Virus record (IMG/VR): IMGVR_UViG_3300008111_000056
Location: 1 to 40,649 of that record
Strand: one strand, 5' to 3'
Length of the DNA stretch: 40,649 bases
DNA from: a virus
Shown here: positions 73-40,573 of the stretch, piece by piece
Position numbering within the stretch: the first letter of the stretch is position 1
How the letters are laid out: every line of letters starts with the position of its first letter
Made by a program: the position numbers and the translations under genes
Notes under the pieces: generated by a model
Told to the model about the DNA's origin: nothing
Database searches by the model: none
Seen by the model: the letters and a program-made list of their open reading frames with translations, nothing else

Positions 73-450
73 ATGTTAGGGGCAGAAGGAGTCAAACAAT
101 TACAACAAGAACAACCAGAAGTTTTCAACCAAACAGAACAACAAACACCTGTTACTAGAGAAAACTTTGCACCAGATAGCGCTGTTATTAATTTACAAGT
201 AGCGCAAGTTTTAGGTTTAGCCTCACTTGAGGCGGGTAGGTATTCCCAAGAAATAAATGAGGCTGTCGAATGGGCAAAAGCAAATGGAGCTAAAACCCTT
301 GATGACATTTTATATGAAATTAGATACTTAACTAATAGACTTGGTAATAACCCCAACGAAAAGAAAATTAAAACTATATCAAGATATATTTTCCTAACTA
401 ATGAAAGAAATAGACTAAATACTGAAATGGAAAGATTACAAACCTCATGA
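73..450 (+). CDS. Small protein of the fibre module (125 aa), unknown function
   Basis: A 125-residue, mostly helical protein with no catalytic motif I recognise. The N-terminal 50 residues are Gln/Thr-rich and variable. The C-terminal part (about 50-125), with blocks such as LASLEAGRYSQEI and GNNPNEKKIKTISRY, is nearly identical in the second copy at 39867-40241. The ATG at 73 has no Shine-Dalgarno site but follows a -10 box. The stop overlaps the next start (ATGA at 447-450), so translation is probably coupled. Its place directly before the fibre suggests a virion or tail-assembly role, which is inferred from context only. Confidence 0.8.
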   Translation: MLGAEGVKQLQQEQPEVFNQTEQQTPVTRENFAPDSAVINLQVAQVLGLASLEAGRYSQEINEAVEWAKANGAKTLDDILYEIRYLTNRLGNNPNEKKIKTISRYIFLTNERNRLNTEMERLQTS

Positions 451-782
451 CATTCCCAGTACCTCAAACATCGCCAGAACAATTAGGCTCAGGACACATG
501 TCTCCTGAAGCTATAATGATGTGGGAACAATTAGGAAGAATTGGCGGAGTAACAGCAGGGCAAGCATTTCAAAGAGTCAGAGAAGCTGACGAAACTAAAT
601 TAATTGATATTTCAGGATCTGATATTTACATAGGTTACGCTTTACCAGGAACACTTACTACAGAAACTAAATGGAAGATTTCAAGAATTAATACTAACAA
701 CCCAATATCTATTTTCTGGGCAGACTCTTCAACACTTTATAATAAAAAGTGGGATGACCGAGTTACCTACACCTACGCATGA
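447..782 (+). CDS. Small tail/virion protein preceding the fibre (111 aa)
   Basis: A 111-residue protein. Residues 55-111 form a beta-rich module (DIYIGYALPGTLTTETKW, FWADSS, WDDRVTYTY) of a kind often seen in phage tail proteins, where the same block begins with a sentence-like 'x-Y-x-G-x-A-x-P-G'. It overlaps its neighbours by ATGA at both ends, so it is made with the 125-aa protein and the fibre. The second copy (40238-40573) is about 92 percent identical, the best conserved part of the repeated module. The precise role is unknown; a fibre-attachment or baseplate role is a guess from position. Confidence 0.8.
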   Translation: MTFPVPQTSPEQLGSGHMSPEAIMMWEQLGRIGGVTAGQAFQRVREADETKLIDISGSDIYIGYALPGTLTTETKWKISRINTNNPISIFWADSSTLYNKKWDDRVTYTYA

Positions 783-5148: not shown

Positions 5149-5348
5149 TGCCAAGATTAGACATACCAGCAAGAGCATACGTTCCTCAACCTTCAGTTGA
5201 AATTACCTACGAGGGTTTTAATGGTGGTCTTAATACATTTTTCAAAGATACTGAAATTAAAAGAAACGAACTTGCAACTGCAGATAATACTATGCTTATA
5301 GGTAAAGGTATAGTTACAGGCAGATGGGGTAGTGAAAACTATTTTTGA
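5148..5348 (+). CDS. N-terminal part of tail nozzle/hub protein (frame 0, 66 aa)
   Basis: Only 66 codons. The sequence EGFNGGLNTFFKDTEIKRNE, then NTMLIGKGIVTGRWGSENYF, looks like the start of a long phage tail protein rather than a complete one. It ends TTT TGA at 5343-5348. The larger frame that continues the sequence overlaps it at 5332-5348 in the +1 frame. A +1 slip of the TTT codon onto the overlapping TTT at the TGA would join this part to DEYNNVQTSQ and give one protein of about 640 residues. Confidence 0.6.
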   Translation: MPRLDIPARAYVPQPSVEITYEGFNGGLNTFFKDTEIKRNELATADNTMLIGKGIVTGRWGSENYF

Positions 5349-7984: not shown

Positions 7985-8646
7985 TGGGAATTAAACTGAA
8001 GTCAGTTGGTTTAGATACATCAGGAGGACTTAACGGAGCAGGTGCTACAACCATCTCAGGAACAGTTACTGTTGCTTCAAATTCACAAAGAATATTAATA
8101 GTAGGATATTTAGGTAGAAGTAGAACAGTTAATTCTATGACCTATGGTGGAGTTTCAATGACAAGATATCAATCTTCAGCAATCTTTGACCAATGTCTAA
8201 CTGAATGGTGGTATATAGTAAATCCTGCAGTAGGTTCAGCAACTCTTACTGCAAACTTATCTGCTAATTCAGACAGCAGAGATTTCCTTGCTTATGCAAG
8301 TTTTTATAATGTAGATACAGTTAATCCTTTTGTAACTTTTGTAACCTCAACAGGAACAGCAGCATCAGTTTCAGTATATCTAAATGGAACTTATGACAAT
8401 ACATATATGATTGGAGGTAACTTCAATACAGGTAACTTATCAGGAGATGCTATCTCACCTGCAGTTTTATTTGCAGAAAGAGACCAATCAGATTCAGGTG
8501 GGGCAAGTTATCTTCAAATTACAACTGCAGCAAACACAAACACAGGTTTTAATAATTTTTCATCAGGGTCAGCATATAGTTATCTTTATTTGGAACTAAA
8601 ACCTGCTGAATTAGATGGAGGGGGTTTTTTGTATAACTTAATATGA
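7984..8646 (+). CDS. Beta-sandwich virion protein, possible adhesin (220 aa)
   Basis: A 220-residue protein dominated by Ser/Thr/Gly/Tyr beta strands (SNSQRILIVGYLGRS, MTYGGVSMTRYQ, EWWYIVNPAVGSATLTANL). The pattern resembles carbohydrate-binding-like beta-sandwich proteins of virions and secreted adhesins, but I recognise no named family with certainty. The start is fused to the previous stop (TAATG) and the stop overlaps the next start (ATGA), so it belongs to the tail/lysis operon. Confidence 0.6.
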   Translation: MGIKLKSVGLDTSGGLNGAGATTISGTVTVASNSQRILIVGYLGRSRTVNSMTYGGVSMTRYQSSAIFDQCLTEWWYIVNPAVGSATLTANLSANSDSRDFLAYASFYNVDTVNPFVTFVTSTGTAASVSVYLNGTYDNTYMIGGNFNTGNLSGDAISPAVLFAERDQSDSGGASYLQITTAANTNTGFNNFSSGSAYSYLYLELKPAELDGGGFLYNLI

Positions 8647-8837
8647 AGTTGGACGAAAGAATGGCAAAACTTGAAGAAAAAGTTGAAAATATCAAGGAAA
8701 ACCTTGACGATGTAGTCAAACACAGACTACCTGCAATAGAAAGAAAGATAGAAGGACTTGGAAAGTATATCTATATTGGAGTTGGTCTTGCTATGGCTGC
8801 TCAAATAATTATTTCATTAATAGTAAAGGAAAAATAA
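8643..8837 (+). CDS. Coiled-coil plus single-TM protein, holin-like (64 aa)
   Basis: The 64-residue product has a charged heptad-like helix (about 3-40, LDERMAKLEEKVENIKENLD) and one transmembrane segment (about 43-60, YIYIGVGLAMAAQIIISLIV), ending in charged residues. This is the architecture of XhlA-like hemolysin/holin-associated proteins. It is directly followed by the endolysin gene with no gap, and such a protein next to an endolysin usually belongs to the lysis cassette. Whether it is the holin itself is not shown. Confidence 0.65.
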   Translation: MKLDERMAKLEEKVENIKENLDDVVKHRLPAIERKIEGLGKYIYIGVGLAMAAQIIISLIVKEK

Positions 8838-9467
8838 ATGAACTATCAAGAATTTTTTAATAAATACAATGGTACTAAAGTAGATTTTGACGGGGCATAC
8901 TCTGCTCAATGCGTAGATTTATTTAATAGATATTTAGTAGATTGTTTAGGAATTAATAACCCTATCCAAATGTTTCCAGTAGGTAGTGCTTATCAAATCT
9001 GGGATTACGCTAAAGATAATACTCAATTTACGAGGATAGAAAATACTCCAACAGGAGTTCCTCAAGTAGGGGACATTTTAATTTGGAAGAAATCACAATC
9101 TCTTCCTTACGGACACGTTGCAATATTTGACAACGGAGATGTAAATAAATTCAAATCATTTGACCAAAACTGGCCTACAGGTGCTGAATGCAAGTTAGTA
9201 GACCATAACTATAATGGACTACAAGGTTGGTTAAGACCTGTTAAGAATGAAGTTGCTCCCGAGAAACCTAAACCACCATTTATAGATTTAGTTTCTTTAT
9301 GGACTTCACTTGATGGTAATAAAACTTATGCCGCAGTAGTAGGAATGTTCTTAACTATTGTTGCTTATAACTTAGGATATATTACTGAAGAACAGTTTAA
9401 TATGTTCGATACATTATTCTTAGCATTAATGGGATTTAGTTTAAGAGACGCAATTAAGAAAAAATAA
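8838..9467 (+). CDS. CHAP-domain endolysin with C-terminal membrane domain
   Basis: Residues 1-140 form a CHAP cysteine amidase/peptidase: catalytic Cys25 in AQCVDLFNRY and His93 in YGHVAIF, with VGDILIW before the His. The enzyme would cut peptidoglycan. A Pro/Lys linker (about 138-148) leads to a C-terminal part (about 155-209) with a hydrophobic helix (TYAAVVGMFLTIVAYNLGY) and a second, shorter one (FDTLFLALMGFSL), ending in lysines. That tail looks like the small phage holin-like proteins usually made separately, so this ORF may fuse both lysis functions. Start ATG follows the previous stop immediately. Confidence 0.85.
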   Translation: MNYQEFFNKYNGTKVDFDGAYSAQCVDLFNRYLVDCLGINNPIQMFPVGSAYQIWDYAKDNTQFTRIENTPTGVPQVGDILIWKKSQSLPYGHVAIFDNGDVNKFKSFDQNWPTGAECKLVDHNYNGLQGWLRPVKNEVAPEKPKPPFIDLVSLWTSLDGNKTYAAVVGMFLTIVAYNLGYITEEQFNMFDTLFLALMGFSLRDAIKKK

Positions 9468-17524: not shown

Positions 17525-17534
17525 TTGATCCTTT

Positions 17535-17582
17535 ATAATTATTTACTATGATTAGATTATCACTATATAAAAATAATGTCAA
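17535..17582 (-). promoter_or_regulatory. Early promoter and leader motif
   Basis: On the minus strand TTGACA (17577-17582), 17 bases, then TAATCT (17554-17559); ATAGTAAATAATTAT (17535-17549) follows at the expected transcript start. The distance from -35 to this motif equals that in the 16158-16186 promoter. Confidence 0.65.
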
Positions 17583-18523
17583 TAAGTTTTATCTTAATAT
17601 AATTTTATTTAAATAAATCAAGTGTTTTATAGGATTTAATAAGTTTATTGACTTTACATTTATAAATTGATTGATCTATTTTTTAACATAGTTCGTTGGC
17701 TAAAAATATTTCAATCCTATTAAATAAGATCAATAAATAAGACAATATATGACGACGTCGTATAACATATAAATAACGACGTTAAATAAACGTGTTATCA
17801 ATAAGATCCAATAGGATAGATATTATAGGTTACTTTATTTTATTAAATTAATAAGGGTATACCACCCGCATGAAGACACGTGGTAAAAAATCTGTAAAGT
17901 ATAATCTAAACACATAGTTTATTTAACCTAAATTACCTAATAACAATAATTTATAATTTATAAGCTCTATAACCCTCTATAAGAGGGGTAGGGTGTTAAA
18001 ACGAGTATAGTATCAGTTTTAGTATAAAAATTAATCCTAGACCTATTATATCTCCTTATAAGGCATGTTCTGATGTAGTGCTTAAGTATAGTTAAGCTTC
18101 TCTGGGTTTATAACCCAAAGATCAGTTAAGTTTAGTGAGTAATATTTATGTTCAAAATTTATTTGAAAAATGAAAAGACTTAAGGCAATAGAACGAAGTT
18201 CGAACAGTTTTTTTTTGAAAAAAGATCCAGAGCGTTGGACTTTAAATACGTAAGGCGGATACTTCCGAAGCGCATTAGTCCCCCTTCCCCCAATAAAAAA
18301 ATTGAGTTCAATTGCAATCGATTCTGTTTTCTCTCAGGATCGCAATACCTATCACACGAACCCCTGCCGTTGTAACAGAGGAAAAGAATGTATCTGTTAG
18401 GTTCAACCACATTCTCTTACAGACCATCACGTGTCCCCCATAGTGAAAACGGAACTCCTCGCGATTCAGTTTGTAGACATTAGCCTCTACAATTTAACCC
18501 CCAGCTAATATTATTTTACTAAT
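17583..18523. other. Long gene-poor region with many inverted repeats; candidate structured RNA, origin or packaging site
   Basis: About 940 bp lie between the leftward operon and the next gene with no convincing protein frame. The left part is very AT-rich with the palindrome ACGACGTCGT (17752-17761). Further hairpins: TACCAC/GTGGTA (17860-17885), CCCTCT ATA AGAGGG (17973-17987), CCTTATAAGG (18054-18063), GCTTAA/TTAAGC (18080-18097), TGGGTT TAT AACCCA (18103-18117). The right part (about 18160-18500) is richer in GC and has longer stems, listed separately. A 76-codon minus frame at 18180-18410 has odd composition and is not supported. Confidence 0.6.
18304..18492. ncRNA. Candidate structured RNA (hypothetical)
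   Basis: Stem a: ATTGC...GCAAT plus GATTCTG/CAGGATC around TTTTCTCT (18311-18346, 12 pairs, 4-base bulge). Stem b: GTTG/CAAC plus TAACAG/CTGTTA (18369-18407, 10 pairs, 4-base bulge). Stem c: TTGTAGA/TCTACAA (18471-18492). Possible closing pairs GAGTTC (18304-18309) with GAACTC (18452-18457) and ACACG (18354-18358) with CGTGT (18430-18434) would nest stems a and b. The strand is unknown. Short pairings can arise by chance, so this is a hypothesis. Confidence 0.3.
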
Positions 18524-18784
18524 TTATTTAATCTCGTCAATTGATTTTCTGAACAAAGTTAATTTGATTTCCAGCTTGAATGGAAAGAACTTCTTTTTGA
18601 GAAATGAAAAAACATACGAATACTCATCATTTATAAAACTTTCAGAAATATTAACATCATGTTCATCTTTAGTTTCATGAAAAATTGTCTTAGAAAAAGG
18701 TTTTTTTGAGATACTTTTATCTGGAAATGATTTAATTAAATCTTTATTAATTGGTTCGAATTTTGATAATTCATGTATTTTCAT
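18524..18784 (-). CDS. Unknown small protein (86 aa)
   Basis: An 86-residue lysine-, phenylalanine- and serine-rich protein (FKLEIKLTLFRKSIDEI at the end). No family recognised. It is divergent from the gene at 18801 with only 16 bp between the start codons, so the two probably share a control region. No Shine-Dalgarno is seen. Confidence 0.5.
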   Translation of the reverse strand: MKIHELSKFEPINKDLIKSFPDKSISKKPFSKTIFHETKDEHDVNISESFINDEYSYVFSFLKKKFFPFKLEIKLTLFRKSIDEIK

Positions 18785-20435: not shown

Positions 20436-21722
20436 ATGAGAGACTTCCATCCTTCCCAGCTTAAAATATACGAGCATCCAGCAAGATTTAAAGTAGTTTG
20501 TGCTGGTAGGCGATTTGGTAAGTCAGAGTTATCTATTATTTCTATGATGTACTTTGCCCTTCTTAATCCTGCCTCAAAGGTAGTGTATTTTGCCCCTACT
20601 ATTTCCCAAGCTAGAGACATTGTCTGGAATAATCTTAAAAACTATTCGAAAGAAGCAGGTCTTTGGGCAGGAGAACCAAATGAATCTCGAATGGAAATAC
20701 CCATTAAAAACATAGATAAGTCTGGTAATTTACTGCCCACTACCTCAGTAATTTGGCTTAGAGGTACTGAAAATATTGAATCGGCGAGAGGTAACAAGAT
20801 TGATTATTTAGTCGTTGACGAGGTGGCCAGTATGCGTAATTGGAGTTATATCTGGGCTGACGTACTGCGACCAACACTTACCGACTCTAAAGGTCAGGCA
20901 ATGTTTATTTCAACTCCAAAAGGATTTAATCACTTCTACCAAATGTTTAACAGGGATAAAGAAGATACTGACTACGCGTCTTTTAGGTTCACTTCCTACG
21001 ATAACCCGTTTCTTGCAGTTGACGAACTTGAAAAAGCTAAACTTGAGGTAGCCGAAGACTCATTTAAACAAGAATATATGGCTGAATTTGTATCGGTTTC
21101 AGGCCAAGTTTATAAAGAATTTGACGTTGTAAGGCAATTTACAACTGTTGATTATGATCCTTATCTTGAACTTCACGTTACTATGGACTTTGGAGTTAAT
21201 GACCCTACATCAATCATCTGGTTACAACCAAATGGTAGTGAATACCGAGTTATTGACTATCACGAGGAACAAAATGCCAATGTTGACTACTTTGCAGCGT
21301 TAATTAAGTCTAAACCATACCGAGAACCATCTCTTTTCACAGGAGACCCCGCAGGTAACGCAAGATCCATTGTAACTAACACTTCACCTATTGAAGAATA
21401 TGCACGTCATGGTATCCATATTAGATCTAAAACTGGGGTTAGAATACCTGAACAAATCAGAATTACACATAAACATATTAAATCTATGTATGTTGATAAC
21501 AAGTTAGAAAGATTTAGAGACTGTTTACTTAACTACAGATACCCTGATAGGAAAGCTAATATGTACTCAACCTCAAATGAAACCCCAATTCACGATGAGT
21601 ATTCCCACGCTATGAGGGCTTTAGAGTATTATTTTGTAAATGTAGATACAGGAGGATTCTTATCAAAGAACCATCAGTACGTGTTGCCACAGAGCGATGT
21701 CAACAAATGGACATTTGAATAG
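20436..21722 (+). CDS. terL: Terminase large subunit (428 aa)
   Basis: ATPase domain: Walker A GRRFGKSE (24-31), Walker B YLVVDEVASM (Asp128, Glu129), coupling motif STPKG. Nuclease domain: TMDFGVNDPTS with Asp251 as the first metal-binding residue, and FTGDPAGNA (Asp near 304). Together these package DNA into the prohead through the portal. Length is typical for short terminases. No Shine-Dalgarno; the start is placed by the promoter and by the N-terminal pattern RDFHPSQLKIYEHPARFKVV. The portal gene follows after 19 bases. Confidence 0.95.
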   Translation: MRDFHPSQLKIYEHPARFKVVCAGRRFGKSELSIISMMYFALLNPASKVVYFAPTISQARDIVWNNLKNYSKEAGLWAGEPNESRMEIPIKNIDKSGNLLPTTSVIWLRGTENIESARGNKIDYLVVDEVASMRNWSYIWADVLRPTLTDSKGQAMFISTPKGFNHFYQMFNRDKEDTDYASFRFTSYDNPFLAVDELEKAKLEVAEDSFKQEYMAEFVSVSGQVYKEFDVVRQFTTVDYDPYLELHVTMDFGVNDPTSIIWLQPNGSEYRVIDYHEEQNANVDYFAALIKSKPYREPSLFTGDPAGNARSIVTNTSPIEEYARHGIHIRSKTGVRIPEQIRITHKHIKSMYVDNKLERFRDCLLNYRYPDRKANMYSTSNETPIHDEYSHAMRALEYYFVNVDTGGFLSKNHQYVLPQSDVNKWTFE

Positions 21723-39866: not shown

Positions 39867-40241
39867 ATGTTAGGCGCTGAAGGAGTTAAACAATTACAAA
39901 CAGAACAACCTCAAATTTTTCAAAAACCTGAAGCAACACCTCAAGTTACAGAAAATTTTACTCCTGATAATTCAATAGTTAGCAGTCAAGTTGCATCTGT
40001 GCTAGGTCTTGCTTCTCTTGAAACTGGTAGATACTCCCAAGAAATTACTGATTTAATTGATTGGGCAAAAGCAAATGGAGCTAAGACTATGGACGATATA
40101 TTATATGAAATTAGGTATTTATCAAATAAATTAGGTAATAATCCTAATGAAAAAAAGATAAAAACAATATCAAGATACGTTTACTTATCAGGTGAAAGAA
40201 GCAGACTCAATACTGAGTTAGAAAGAATGCAAACATTATGA
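39867..40241 (+). CDS. Second copy of the small fibre-module protein (124 aa)
   Basis: A 124-residue homologue of the protein at 73-450. The N-terminal 45 residues are the variable part (TEQPQIFQKPEATPQVTENF), while ANGAKTMDDILYEIRYLSNK and GNNPNEKKIKTISRY in the C-terminal half are conserved. One residue shorter. It uses the same TATTGG-to-ATG spacing and ATGA overlap with the next gene. Confidence 0.8.
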   Translation: MLGAEGVKQLQTEQPQIFQKPEATPQVTENFTPDNSIVSSQVASVLGLASLETGRYSQEITDLIDWAKANGAKTMDDILYEIRYLSNKLGNNPNEKKIKTISRYVYLSGERSRLNTELERMQTL

Positions 40242-40573
40242 CATTCCCAGTACCACAAACATCTCCAGAACAATTAGGATCAGGACACATGTCTCCTGAG
40301 GCTATTATGATGTGGGAACAACTAGGTAGAATTGGTGGGGTAACAGCAGGACAAGCATTTCAAAGAGTTAGAGAAGCTGATGAAACAAAACTAATTGATA
40401 TTAATGGTGCAGATATTTACGTTGCTTACGCACTACCTGGAACTTTAACTTCTGAGTCAAAATGGAAAATTTCAAAAATTAATACTAATAACCCTATATC
40501 TATTTTTTGGGCAGACTCTTCTACACTTTATAACAAAAAGTTTGATGATAGAGCTACCTATACCTACGCATGA
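40238..40573 (+). CDS. Second copy of the small tail protein (111 aa)
   Basis: Nine substitutions in 111 residues relative to 447-782, mostly conservative (Ile to Val, Thr to Ser, Arg to Lys) and clustered in the beta-rich C-terminal half. Residues 1-54 are identical. The start overlaps the previous stop and the stop overlaps the next ATG. Confidence 0.85.
   Translation: MTFPVPQTSPEQLGSGHMSPEAIMMWEQLGRIGGVTAGQAFQRVREADETKLIDINGADIYVAYALPGTLTSESKWKISKINTNNPISIFWADSSTLYNKKFDDRATYTYA

Follow-up and report, generated by a model that had tools for sequence, protein, structure and literature searches.

A previously undescribed family of predicted structured RNAs beside terminase or portal genes of freshwater phages

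At the level of gene content, the window –the whole stretch of DNA analysed, 40,649 nt of the IMG/VR virus record IMGVR_UViG_3300008111_000056– is divided at positions 17583-18523 by a gap between leftward genes and a rightward block; one short ORF, also leftward (18524-18784), lies between. The original prediction had called this divider gene-free, and we agree: no plausible gene is present in 17525-18523, where the frames are short, overlapping and 46-76 aa long. A conserved protein frame was looked for across four homologous regions and was absent. The translated matches were weak, lay in several frames and on both strands, and read through stops. Thus, no one reading frame is conserved, and we rejected a coding reading of the gap. 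A tRNA search of the window found none.

The gap consists of two joined parts, the left with 26% GC and the right (about 18240-18510) with 43-44% GC. The right third had been described as richer in GC, and it is (0.439 in 18304-18492 vs. 0.258 in 17583-18240, with flanks of 0.29-0.30). The density of hairpins, also predicted, held in part. We counted perfect inverted repeats by minimum stem length, with 60 dinucleotide shuffles as the control. Stems of at least 6 bp were in real but mild excess (26 vs. 15.8 ± 4.3; 1/60 shuffles as high), those of at least 7 bp numbered 7 vs. 4.2 (7/60 shuffles as high), and stems of at least 8 bp were not in excess (0 vs. 1.3), so the region is modestly hairpin-dense by count. 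Since the excess is found at 6 bp or more and not at 8 bp or more, hairpin density alone is weak evidence. The folding energy of 17830-18510 gave z = -3.3 on the plus strand. The features described below are collected in Table 1.

Table 1. Position, strand and basis of the features in and beside the gap
Feature	Position	Strand	Basis or remark
-35 element TTGACG	18535..18540	-	scan; equivalent sites in L003, L184, L148, L087, L093
-10 element TAAAAT	18513..18518	-	16-nt spacer; inferred start about 18506
Inferred noncoding RNA	18218..18506	-	5' end from promoter; 3' end tentative
5' hairpin, 7 bp, loop of 8	18471..18492	-	folding; unlike the 5' hairpin of L184, L148, L087 and L093
Candidate long-range helix P4, ACACG (18434-18430) with CGTGT (18358-18354)	18354..18434	-	by eye
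Conserved core, about 145 nt	18273..18417	-	match of covariance model R2
Helix P3, 18418-18410 with 18390-18382, 9 bp, one G-U	18382..18418	-	alignment A9
Helix P2, 18381-18376 with 18366-18361, 6 bp, one G-U	18361..18381	-	alignment A9
Conserved joining segment UGUGAUA	18350..18356	-	same in 5/6 members; UGUGAAA in L184
Helix P1, outer 18344-18339/18318-18313, inner 18338-18335/18326-18323	18313..18344	-	alignment A9
Candidate hairpin P5, 18306-18301 with 18294-18289	18289..18306	-	by eye; opens into the G tract
Conserved GGGGG(N)AGGGGGACUAA tract	18276..18291	-	6/6 members, length varies
Possible weak terminator, GTCCA-acgctc-TGGAT, then C and six T	18218..18240	-	sequence; below terminator-scan stringency
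Left part, AT-rich	17800..18264	not assigned	weak similarity, L003 only

Homologues of the element were reached by several routes. A search with the terminase large subunit (20436-21722) gave contig 3300036770_002282 (locus L003), whose protein is 89% identical and whose gap at the equivalent place holds a recognisable counterpart of the window element. Pattern scans for shared motifs, biased toward the motifs chosen for them and confirmed with nhmmer, gave L087, L093, L145, L146 and L148 among the matches listed; L145 and L146 are identical to L093 across the core. The CHAP-domain lysin is 69-80% identical among the window, L003's contig, L087 and L093/L145, and a search with it returned 16 contigs and one new carrier, L184. 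Its RNA scored 119.7 bits with the covariance model R1 (described below), and its motifs are altered beyond the reach of the patterns. L184 is thus an independent route, reached through lysin homology and not through RNA patterns. Altogether, at least six distinct sequences (the window, L003, L184, L148, L087 and L093) from different viral contigs carry the element.

Other searches added no members. The 86-aa neighbour gene as query gave nothing new, the 87-aa neighbour returned the known L003 contig alone, and a pattern search of GTDB genomes gave 10 matches, none of which fits the model. Weak model matches in G019, G020, G022 and G023 were rejected because they resemble coding sequence or are without the conserved parts. 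At L218 2458-2477 (G023), GGGGGUGGGGGGUCUAGCA resembles the G-rich tail of the RNA, with the rest of the fold absent. Several contigs sharing the lysin or the terminase, possibly fragments, had no detectable copy. Judging from these sequences, the RNA is not universal among phages with a related lysin or terminase.

The relationship was tested with models that had not seen the window. R1, built from L003, L148, L093 and L087, matched the window with 69 bits (E=1.3e-13). R2, in the opposite orientation and built from L148, L184, L087 and L093 without the window and L003, found the window's core on the minus strand with 86.5 bits (E=3.8e-20) and L003 with 82.5 bits (E=4e-19). The alignment of the six distinct sequences (A9) has 23 pairs, and was compared with 500 shuffles and with a control in which partners were slid by 1-3 columns. 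Pairs form in 135/138 cells (97.8%, vs. 76.2% in shuffles). Changes on both sides were found in 17/23 pairs (7.0 shuffled) and in 32 cells (8.6 shuffled), no shuffle of the 500 matched A9 in paired percentage, double-change or covariation values, and pairing fell to 39-46% in the slid controls. A9 was fitted to the model structure, so these values are somewhat inflated toward it; this fitting does not account for the blind matches to the window and L003. Structures were drawn up by hand, not taken from an RNAalifold consensus, and then tested by counts. Thus, compensatory changes keep the pairing beyond controls, as is generally expected of a structured RNA, and the conservation and covariation that the original prediction proposed to look for in related phages are present.

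Within the core, helix P2 had all six pairs doubly changed and P3 four of the seven counted, both with 100% of cells paired, and P1 had double changes in 5/6 outer and 2/4 inner pairs. Sequence conservation is mostly in unpaired segments: the P3 loop UUGAACCUAACAGAUA, the joining segment UGUGAUA, the invariant P1 loop AGAGAAAA (18334-18327) and the tail GGGGGUAGGGGGACUAAC. The letters of the helices are free to vary and the pairing is kept. Candidate helix P4 probably encloses P3 and P2, and its counterpart in L003 (CATCAG/CTGATG) is a change that supports pairing. Candidate hairpin P5 has pairing counterparts in four members (CCAT/ATGG, CCAA/TTGG, CCCA/TGGG and CAAU/AUUG) and runs on into GGGGGAAGGGGGACUAA. 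In the 5' domain, L184, L148, L087 and L093 are mutually alignable and, by eye, open with a helix GTCG/CGAC (ATCG/CGAT in L148), whereas the window and L003 do not align with them.

Two short motifs were looked at separately. In the P3 loop of the window (18408-18391, minus strand), UUGAACC is perfectly complementary to GGUUCAA, a common sequence of the tRNA T arm, which may be chance; the same site reads UUGAACA in L148 and L184 and UUGACCU in L003. A hammerhead-like CUGAUG was rejected, as it is absent from the window's copy and has no Rfam match.

In all six sequences, a sigma-70-like site with a spacer of 16-17 bases ends some 6 nt ahead of the predicted 5' end. Shuffle P values were 0.008 for the window, 0.012 for L003, 0.023 for L184, 0.142 for L148 (a weak match), 0.041 for L087 and 0.043 for L093, the last two being one lineage, so that these values cover five lineages. 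They are optimistic, since the anchor for the window and L003 was chosen after seeing the site. The sites keep their place even where the 5' flanks cannot otherwise be aligned, as in the window and L003. From this promoter-like site before the 5' end in six sequences, we infer leftward transcription from about 18506, and the transcript would be about 290-300 nt, possibly longer.

The strand was less evident from folding energies. The whole 670-base gap folded better against its own shuffles on the plus strand, which opposes a minus reading, and for the window and L003 alike the plus-strand z of the whole region was about -3. Besides, L003 has a strong promoter-like site antisense to the RNA, seen in this locus only (5229-5257, plus strand, TTGACG-17-TATAAT with TG). 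The plus-strand reading that the gap's folding energy and this promoter had first suggested was dropped, because A-C mismatches become G-U pairs on the minus strand, promoters point inward in 6/6 sequences, and core folding favours minus in 4/5. In the first alignment, where L003 was partly misaligned, mismatches in plus-strand helices were mostly A-C, i.e., G-U on the minus strand; in A9 the asymmetry still favours the minus strand, by about 6 to 2 only. For the core (18275-18510), z was -3.0 on the minus strand vs. -0.9 on the plus strand, and the loops are A-rich when read on the minus strand. Together, these sequence features support reading the RNA on the minus strand.

Terminase or portal genes adjoin the RNA in every carrier, in three arrangements. 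In the window and L003, the early leftward genes lie on one side of it and the rightward block leading to the terminase on the other; in L184, it lies directly before TerS-TerL. All three copies are directed away from the terminase. The L148 copy and TerS-TerL are divergent, and the downstream side of this RNA runs off the contig. In L087 and L093 it lies between the terminase and portal genes, co-directional with both and with the portal about 130 nt downstream; in L093, one extra ORF separates the terminase from the RNA. Some carriers have terminase large subunits that did not match each other: that of L148 finds nothing in L145's contig. No conserved partner gene for the RNA was found.

Some neighbouring features were recorded in their own right. 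G019 has a TerL 77% like that of L148, and its equivalent upstream gap (L217 3660-4121) is noncoding, with two near-identical repeats of about 26 bases and C-rich stretches, and the RNA is absent. The CHAP lysin, with an adjacent 62-64 aa protein (window 8643-9467, L093 5560-6392, L087 4343-5178, L184 3964-4805), is about 70% or more identical though terminase and portal proteins clearly differ, which hints at a common host group or at exchange of modules. At both ends of the window (73-782 and 39867-40573) there is a gene pair (MLGAEGVKQL..., MTFPVPQTSPEQLGSGHM...), similar and not identical; the left-end pair precedes a putative tail-fibre gene (1150 aa), and this arrangement suggests that a tail-fibre module was duplicated.

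We consider it likely that the phage encodes here a free-standing noncoding RNA, of a family absent from Rfam and with its own sigma-70-like promoter, and that this RNA acts in trans. Leftward transcription from about 18506 would give an RNA of about 290 nt, whose core would fold into hairpins P3, P2 and P1 with a short G-rich tail. That conservation is restricted to loops and joining segments points to a scaffold, which would hold single-stranded segments that contact a protein or RNA partner. Action in trans is probable; that the partner is the host gene-expression machinery during takeover is a guess that we regard as rather doubtful.

A cis-acting leader would mean that the promoter begins an operon whose transcription or translation is controlled by the fold, in the way that HK022 put acts in antitermination; this seems unlikely. 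Such a leader would have its own promoter site, as here, and would always precede its operon in the same direction. The RNA is co-directional with the next genes in L087 and L093 and, for the window and L003, with the leftward operon at a distance. However, that distance is about 0.75-1.0 kb of noncoding DNA between the core and the next gene, the genes behind the RNA differ among carriers (early genes or portal), the weak terminator candidate would end the window's RNA, and the gene met next in the RNA's direction in L184 (11579-12109, plus strand) is convergent with it. Position, promoter and this convergent gene argue against a simple leader. We also weighed whether the core belongs as a single domain to a larger, ornate RNA (17830-18506, about 650-700 nt), like GOLLD or ROOL in kind, which we find quite improbable. 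Between the left part of the gap (17800-18264) and L003 5201-5735 there is collinearity beyond chance (local alignment score of 160 vs. 121.7 ± 9.5 in shuffles), and the plus-strand folding of the whole region in both sequences agrees with a larger RNA. However, the left part has no similarity to L148, marginal similarity to L184 and no clear match in other members, so it is comparable in two sequences only; folding of the left region in L003 favours the plus strand, the whole gap before the portal in L087 and L093 is about 430 nt, and 17525-17800 is unconserved even against L003. The left 600 bases (17583-18240) are weakly conserved and may be a longer RNA form, a regulatory region or drifting DNA. 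The original prediction of a large structured RNA such as GOLLD or ROOL stands in part: for the right third, a structured RNA is strongly supported by homology, covariation and a promoter site at a conserved position, but it is read on the minus strand, its well-supported core is about 145 nt, and no GOLLD or ROOL match was found.

The proximity to terminase and portal genes in all members raises two more readings. This position, in three arrangements and with some terminases not recognisably related, might suggest that the RNA serves in assembling heads or packaging DNA of phages with ordinary terminases, a role that we regard as very unlikely. A DNA element –a replication origin or a terminase recognition site, with hairpins working as DNA– would fit the same neighbourhood and a local minimum of cumulative GC skew near 18-19 kb. 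However, the skew change coincides with the gene-strand switch, orientation to the terminase varies (co-directional in L087 and L093; opposite in the window, L003, L184 and L148), and the conserved loops, the tolerance of G-U pairs and the promoter site directed at the 5' end are characteristic of an RNA. As readings of the right third, the origin and packaging-site candidates are a poor fit and unneeded, and we hold a DNA element to be highly improbable.

On the sequence evidence, the RNA represents a previously undescribed family found in freshwater phages, with a fold common to six viral sequences despite changed letters. In genomes as packed as those of phages, a folded RNA kept through heavy sequence change and in different gene arrangements must serve some use. 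The family is compact, backed by covariation and near-invariant in its loops, and together with a working model it gives a handle on phage RNAs of unassigned function: the conserved loops mark where a partner should bind, and the core is of a size amenable to probing, pull-down and structural studies. Many such families have been described, and this one adds a further class; the advance is real, if incremental until the function is known.

Regarding known RNAs, the Rfam covariance search proposed as a check matched no known family: there was no gathering-score match in the whole window, and at cutoffs as lax as E=3-5 the window element, L003, L148, L184, L087 and L093 gave chance-level scores far below gathering cutoffs. 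DNA similarity to 50,697 phage records returned nothing related, and no description was found in a literature search with thin coverage of subscription journals. Membership in GOLLD, ROOL or packaging RNAs is thus not supported. GOLLD (RF01998) was first known partly from lake metagenomes and, like the present RNA, is a phage-encoded structured noncoding RNA whose function is also unassigned; ROOL (RF03087), a noncoding RNA of phages and prophages, shares this. GOLLD is often over 800 nt, and both are often near tRNA islands (PMC12286853). In contrast, the present RNA is limited by its short core and the short gap of L087 and L093, has no tRNA in the window, matches neither family and adjoins terminase or portal genes. 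HK022 put, a cis-acting antitermination RNA of about 70 nt with two stems, is also a promoter-proximal phage RNA with small hairpins, but size and arrangement differ here, and a convergent gene lies downstream in L184. Finally, the pRNA of phi29-like phages, which have their own packaging ATPase, forms an oligomer on the portal and is required for packaging. The present RNA is likewise a structured phage RNA and lies beside terminase or portal genes, but these phages carry TerL-type terminases and the Rfam match is absent; if it did take part in packaging, it would be a second, independent packaging-type RNA outside the phi29 group.
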